Source: Candidatus Nitrosocaldaceae archaeon
GTDB lineage: Archaea; Thermoproteota; Nitrososphaeria; Nitrososphaerales; Nitrosocaldaceae
Reading direction: 5' to 3'
NCBI GenBank assembly: GCA_026002835.1
Contig: BPGC01000002.1
Coordinates: 1-64,000 of the forward strand
DNA: 64,000 bases
Shown: positions 46,325-46,744 of the stretch, piece by piece
Numbering within the stretch: position 1 is the first letter of the stretch
Layout: each line of letters begins with the position of its first letter
Position numbers and translations under genes: made by a program
Notes under the pieces: generated by a model
What the model was told of the DNA's origin: nothing
Databases searched by the model: none
What the model saw: only the letters and a program-made list of their open reading frames with translations

Positions 46325-46744
46325 ATGAGTCAGCCGAAATCATTAGGAAGTTTAAAGGAAGGTTCGTATATAGTAATAGATGGTGAGCCTTGCAGAATTG
46401 TATCATATGAGAAAAGCAAACCTGGAAAGCAGTAAAAACTGCCCAGAGAGCACGGTTCTGCAAAGGCTAGAGTAGTAGGCATAGGTATATTCGATAATGT
46501 TAGAAGGAGTATAGTATCTCCAGTAGATGCAAATGTAGAAGTTCCAATAATAGATAAGAGGAATGGACAAGTTATAGCTATTACTGATAATACTATTCAG
46601 ATAATGGATCTTGAGACATTTGAGACGTTTGAGACAAGTTCTATAGATGATGAGATTAGAGATAAGATAACACAAGGTGCTGAAGTGGAATATTGGAAGG
46701 TTATGGATAGAATAAAGGTTGTGAGAGTAAAAGGCAGTCAATAA
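46325..46744 (+). CDS. translation factor aIF5A, interrupted by a 21-nt intron (46325-46427 joined to 46449-46744)
   Basis: Read directly, the frame runs MSQPKSLGSLKEGSYIVIDG to SKPGKQ and a TAA at 46433-46435. Removing 46428-46448 gives one clean frame of 132 residues and a stop at 46742-46744. Its centre becomes SYEKSKPGKHGSAKARVVGI, the invariant hypusine loop of eIF5A, with hypusine lysine at residue 35. The second domain (SIVSPVDANVEVPIIDKRNG to VEYWKVMDRIKVVRVKGSQ) is complete and of normal length. eIF5A relieves ribosome stalling, is modified by deoxyhypusine synthase and is essential in archaea, so a plain pseudogene is unlikely. The stretch 46405-46465 folds as described in the intron entry. 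Confidence 0.9.
46428..46448 (+). other. 21-nt bulge-helix-bulge intron splitting the hypusine codon
   Basis: Pairing seen: 46422-46425 (CTGG) with 46443-46446 (CCAG), a 4-bp central helix; bulge AAA at 46426-46428; inner stem 46429-46433 (GCAGT) with 46438-46442 (ACTGC) closed by loop AAAA; second bulge AGA at 46447-46449. That is the archaeal splicing-endonuclease pattern of 3-nt bulges around a 4-bp helix. Cutting each bulge after its second base removes 46428-46448 exactly and joins A to AG, recreating the AAG lysine codon. The outer helix is weak next to the bulge (C46421-G46450), but 46419-46422 can alternatively pair with 46454-46457. A phase-1 intron. Confidence 0.85.

Follow-up and report, generated by a model that had tools for sequence, protein, structure and literature searches.

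A predicted bulge-helix-bulge intron in the hypusine-lysine codon of aIF5A in two orders of ammonia-oxidising archaea

Splicing of archaeal pre-mRNA has its established precedent in cbf5, whose bulge-helix-bulge (BHB) intron is described as the only further archaeal BHB intron on record in a study that adds sites in the 5' UTR from Haloferax (PMC7714728; the papers cited here are represented by excerpts of their text), and introns in other archaeal protein genes have been predicted but not confirmed (PMC2738675). Here we describe an insert in the aIF5A gene that we file beside cbf5 as a further pre-mRNA BHB intron, predicted from sequence. Like the cbf5 intron of Desulfurococcales and Sulfolobales, it combines a BHB-like, mostly unconventional motif and a predicted cut between the second and third bulge bases with an alpha-beta type splicing endonuclease, an essential-type RNA or translation gene, and a site that is conserved across orders around a variable interior (PMC2738675). 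It differs from the cbf5 intron in its gene, in its class (Nitrososphaeria), in splitting the codon of the expected hypusine lysine, and in carrying an in-frame stop in all ten sequences compared (inserts of 17-40 nt); cbf5 splicing has been confirmed by cDNA in some species (PMC2738675), whereas we infer that of aIF5A from sequence. With archaeal tRNA introns of the HBh' type the insert shares a central 4-bp helix, 3-nt bulges, an inner stem and an outer helix that is weak or absent (PMC6379350), and the 11 to 175 nt given for archaeal tRNA introns cover its range of lengths (PMC2738675); unlike them, it lies in an mRNA whose reading frame depends on its removal, with no tRNA body. HVO_1309 of Haloferax volcanii is likewise an mRNA with BHB sites, cut by EndA in that case and predicted to be so in aIF5A, but its sites lie in the 5' UTR and its coding frame is independent of them (PMC7714728). 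A preliminary description of the locus knew the cbf5 precedent and no intron in aIF5A, and our search of the open-access literature (subscription papers being outside its scope) likewise found no report of one; the excerpts of PMC7819960, PMC10811736, PMC7300363, PMC7554672 and PMC7603488 contain no mention of IF5A or of an intron.

The window, by which we mean the whole 64,000-nt stretch of DNA analysed, carries aIF5A on the forward strand at 46325-46744, from the ATG at 46325 to a stop codon at 46742-46744 (Table 1). The frame is closed after 36 codons by a TAA and the same frame resumes at HGSAKAR, so that the unspliced mRNA would give the 36-residue stub foreseen in the preliminary description. 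Removal of the 21-nt insert restores the frame, as had been claimed, and yields a protein of 132 residues that scores 190.9 bits against the NCBIfam IF-5A model NF003076 (cut-off 138), carries the Pfam domains IF5A-like_N and eIF-5a, and, among the matches listed, is 71-80% identical to 120 of 7,404 homologues, those with a named source being mostly Nitrososphaeria. The interrupted residue is the Lys of the GKHG motif, which lines up with the Lys in archaeal IF5A chains of known structure and which, from knowledge of the family, we take to be the hypusine lysine. The BHB cut does remove 21 nt and recreate AAG, as first described, but the exact cut cannot be read from the window alone: five placements of the removal (offsets 0 to +4) give an identical product, and the cut point therefore rests on the BHB rule together with the relatives, eight of which have a unique excision point.

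Table 1. Positions of the aIF5A exons, the predicted intron and its structural elements in the window
Feature	Position	Strand	Support
aIF5A exon 1, ATG to first base of the hypusine Lys codon	46325..46427	+	matches exon 1 of nine relatives
Predicted 21-nt bulge-helix-bulge intron	46428..46448	+	same-site inserts in nine relatives
In-frame TAA within the intron	46433..46435	+	stop inside the insert in 10/10 sequences
CUGG, central helix, exon-1 strand	46422..46425	+	invariant in nine distinct aligned rows
CCAG, central helix, intron strand	46443..46446	+	invariant in nine distinct aligned rows
5' bulge AAA, predicted cut after second base (46427)	46426..46428	+	cut agrees with the frame, 10/10
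3' bulge AGA, predicted cut after second base (46448)	46447..46449	+	cut agrees with the frame, 10/10
Inner stem GCAGU (46429-46433) / ACUGC (46438-46442), AAAA loop	46429..46442	+	both partners differ among relatives in two inner pairs
aIF5A exon 2, last two Lys-codon bases to stop	46449..46744	+	frame, joined translation, NCBIfam match

The host is most likely a heat-loving ammonia-oxidising archaeon, related to Nitrosothermus and belonging to the family Nitrosocaldaceae. The nearest aIF5A locus is L001. Five stretches of the contig with the aIF5A locus of Ca. Nitrosothermus koennekii align in order with the window between 34.4 and 53.7 kb at 68-77% DNA identity, the spliced aIF5A proteins of the two are 89% identical, and the G+C content of the window, 31.9%, is consistent with the 31.9-33.1% given for the genus Nitrosothermus in the excerpted text (PMC7819960). 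Common to both sequences is GTAACGTTAAATA, perhaps a promoter element, just upstream of the aIF5A start (46290-46320 in the window). Between a gene for a siroheme-decarboxylase-like regulator and aIF5A, the window has a radical SAM protein gene (44565-46181, reverse strand), and the syntenic Nitrosothermus contig has no aligned DNA at that place. Elsewhere, the window encodes a protein joining pentapeptide repeats to a TIR domain (21470-22573, reverse strand) and an ISXO2/IS1595-type transposase ORF (6720-7382, forward strand), whose domain match stops before the end of the profile and which is perhaps incomplete.

The same break recurs in relatives, where the preliminary description had suggested looking for it. 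Exon 2, used as the query of a scan, matched 70 loci, and among the 69 examined (L065 was left out) 66 run unbroken through the site and three are broken, belonging to Ca. Nitrosothermus koennekii (L001), SAT137 (L011) and L034. A pattern spanning the intron/exon-2 junction, which should not match an unbroken gene and which, being exact, could miss introns with another 3' end, matched 8 of 400 genomes of the class, every genome covered in the family of Ca. Nitrosothermus (G001; seven of seven) and in that of SAT137 (G002; two of two), and 5 of 398 genomes of the phylum, these five being among those already found; by this pattern the samples of 400 and 398 genomes held no further insert-bearing genomes, and a reversed control pattern had no match in the rows of these scans. 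An aIF5A match was present in 357 of the 400 class genomes and absent from 43, the site being read directly only among the matches listed. Together with the window this gives ten sequences, and in the nine relatives the break falls at exactly this position, within the same Lys codon. The inserts measure 17 nt in G001, 21 nt in the window, 22 nt in G002 and G116, 32 nt in G072, G103 and G363, 35 nt in G003 and G082, and 40 nt in G167; the insert of the window, presented as among the shortest archaeal mRNA introns, is longer than that of G001. Nine of the ten would shift the frame if kept, and the ten lengths include all three frame classes. Once joined, the codon reads AAG in nine sequences and AAA in one, and all ten give an intact protein of 130-132 residues. 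Eight sequences allow a single excision point, which coincides with the BHB cut; G001 has two equivalent placements and the window the five already mentioned.

A second intact aIF5A gene, which the preliminary description had named as grounds for giving up the intron, was not found in the nine insert-bearing relatives, each of which has only the two pieces; nor is the insert a repeated or mobile element there, a gapped insert pattern occurring once per genome in all nine. Judged by coordinates, the other genomes with two aIF5A matches show a weak second match (G013), a weak second piece (G371), contig ends (G141, G191 and G379), an apparent junction further on in the protein (G237) and two full-length copies (G146 and G170). 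Outside the intron set, the two copies in G170 are different from each other (C86:1107-1511 and C42:15098-15505, 57% and 45% identity) and represent a paralogue or a mixed bin. The exon sequence CCTGG stands before the cut in 10 of 10 sequences with the insert versus 24 of 49 without it, the latter being what is left of the 70 loci after setting aside the three with inserts, L041 and the 17 loci L054-L070; a link between this codon use and the insert is suggestive only.

All ten sequences can form a central 4-bp helix, CUGG/CCAG, flanked by two 3-nt bulges on opposite strands, and in all ten a cut after the second base of each bulge restores both the frame and the Lys codon. The inner stem h' is always present and spans 3-11 bp, G-U pairs included; the two bulges, the 4-bp helix, the 5-bp inner stem and the AAAA loop of the window are as previously described. 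The outer helix of the canonical hBHBh' form is reduced to a single C-G pair in the window, to none in G001 and to 2 bp in the other eight, and the fold at 37 C is contested; on these grounds the motif is of the relaxed HBh' form rather than the canonical hBHBh'. With this amendment, the BHB-type intron splitting the hypusine codon that had been proposed stands as the best account of the sequences. Alpha-beta endonucleases are said to cut relaxed motifs (excerpt of PMC6379350), and Thaumarchaeota are said to have an endonuclease of the alpha-beta type (excerpt of PMC4090602).

The fold energy of the window region is unremarkable (z -1.20, 24 of 200 shuffles folding as well), whereas among 20,000 shuffles of the 21 nt in the window 1.85% form the four central pairs and none adds a 5-bp inner stem; across all inserts, with 20,000 shuffles each, the central helix arises in 1.85-3.9% and the central helix plus the observed inner stem in no more than 0.065%. 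In the nine distinct aligned rows, 99.1% of cells pair, against 18.9-49.1% in slid versions. Both partners are replaced in two of the inner pairs (A-U/G-C and C-G/U-A), eight cells in all, and 12 of the 14 pairs, among them the central helix, never vary. Three of the five measures lie above every one of the 500 shuffles, namely the number of paired cells, the number of cells with both partners changed and the covariation score; the other two are no higher than in shuffles, 214 of 500 having as many pairs with such double changes and 500 of 500 as many further pair types. Folding, which had been proposed as a check, gave different results at two temperatures: in eight of the nine distinct sequences the BHB form coincides with the predicted minimum at 70 C, to within 0.1 kcal/mol and with an ensemble probability of 0.13-0.55 (extrapolated energies, on pieces of 43-66 nt), but at 37 C it is the minimum in only two, falls short by up to 3.8 kcal/mol in the others and has an ensemble probability of 0.008-0.85. 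In the window, the lowest-energy fold at 37 C pairs the 3' bulge into an exon hairpin.

The enzymes that such an intron would need, EndA and RtcB, had been named as a further check and are encoded in all nine insert-bearing relatives. EndA (PF01974) is represented by two genes in six of them and by one in three, a second PF01974 gene not being found in the latter. The first gene of G001 can be aligned with the A. pernix chain 3P1Z over almost all of its length; opposite A. pernix H133, where 3AJV (listed as H133A) has Ala, it carries a His, and the Crenarchaea-specific loop seems to us to be present in it. The second gene of G001 is without a His at the place aligned to the residue of M. jannaschii EndA that we take to be the catalytic His; it fits what a structural beta subunit would look like, the first then being alpha. 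A distance of 2.8-2.9 kb separates the EndA alpha gene from the RtcB gene in G003, G072, G082, G103, G167 and G363 (loci L110-L115 and L125-L130), the two being on different contigs in the remaining three. A gene of the deoxyhypusine synthase family (PF01916) is present in all nine relatives (L134-L142 and further matches), two such genes being found in eight and one in G001. In these genomes the insert sits in aIF5A and not in cbf5, which is one open frame in the eight relatives with a match over the cut-off; G002 has only a weak partial match.

We conclude that the insert interrupting the expected hypusine-Lys codon of aIF5A is very probably a BHB intron that EndA would remove from the pre-mRNA, after which RtcB would join the exons. 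In the mechanism that we propose, EndA would cleave the aIF5A pre-mRNA after the second base of each bulge, RtcB would ligate the exons, and the restored lysine would be hypusinated.

Splicing might in addition regulate aIF5A as a gate, in which case translation of unspliced RNA would end at the in-frame stop and the supply of the factor would follow EndA/RtcB capacity or temperature, a reading that we regard as unlikely. In all ten sequences the unspliced reading frame ends within the insert, at codon 3, 4, 7 or 8 from the Lys position (TAA in nine, TGA in one), compared with an in-frame stop in 17-47% of shuffled inserts; the rows are related, however, so that ten stops are not ten events, and descent of a single stop from the first insert would leave the same pattern, which leaves the excess as a hint at selection and not a test of it. 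The insert is kept in every genome searched in both families, and the predicted ensemble share of the BHB form is higher at 70 C than at 37 C in seven of nine sequences and lower in the two of the family of SAT137, which is called a marine mesophile in the excerpted text (PMC7603488); against this stands that the folding at 70 C is extrapolated and was run on short pieces. The idea of a gate would thus draw only on the stop codons and on a predicted temperature dependence, and we rate as similarly doubtful its broader form, in which two orders of ammonia-oxidising archaea have placed the making of the aIF5A hypusine site under the tRNA-splicing enzyme by means of a 17-40 nt RNA switch.

A mechanism in which the RNA stays uncut and the ribosome gets past the insert by read-through, bypass or frameshifting, signalled by the stem-loop, seems to us very improbable. 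Stem-loops adjoining a stop are reminiscent of translational bypass, and the 21 nt of the window are divisible by three and directly preceded by an AAG codon. In the eight genes with a unique excision point, however, exon 1 is followed by T and a TAG precedes the His codon, so that the lysine codon is not present in one piece in the DNA and no landing site yields lysine, which argues against read-through and bypass alike; the occurrence of all three frame classes among the insert lengths points the same way, and bypass would not require helices whose bulges fall where the frame is restored, as they do in ten of ten sequences.

Still less probable is removal of the insert by another route, through a different RNase plus a ligase or as a self-cleaving RNA. 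The relaxed motif and the competing folds at 37 C would leave room for such a route, and neither ARAGORN nor Rfam gave a match in the window, which thus held no known RNA family. Group I and II introns, however, are far larger than 17-40 nt, and inserts of this size are too small to belong to them. EndA substrates as described in the excerpted text (PMC2738675) have the same 3-nt bulges, 4-bp spacing and cut rule. Finally, an error of sequencing or assembly, or a decayed gene, could also break a single window with an in-frame stop, but we give it next to no weight, since nine genomes from independent records carry inserts of different lengths at the same base, the ten joined frames are intact and no second aIF5A was found in the nine, and the same-site inserts rule out chance and sequencing error as general explanations.

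The BHB intron of aIF5A was probably gained once, before Nitrosocaldales and Nitrosomirales separated. SAT137 is placed in Ca. Nitrosomirales, the sister order of Nitrosocaldales (excerpt of PMC10811736), and it is mainly this published relation that makes a single gain the simplest account. In an aIF5A protein tree (59 rows, quick method), the ten sequences do not form one clade but split into three groups, with SH-aLRT support of 98, 92 and 99%, where the tree is poorly resolved; two changes, not one, are needed, the starred branches forcing only one.

Archaeal pre-mRNA splicing has so far been based on one gene, cbf5, in one branch (excerpt of PMC7714728). With a second gene, in a distant class and with its site kept across two families, it would be a recurring process. 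At lengths down to 17 nt, the aIF5A inserts would offer very small natural substrates on which to study the requirements of EndA, and in these genomes plain ORF calling breaks an essential factor. The position of the intron, in the codon of the one hypusine-bound lysine, poses a sharp question.
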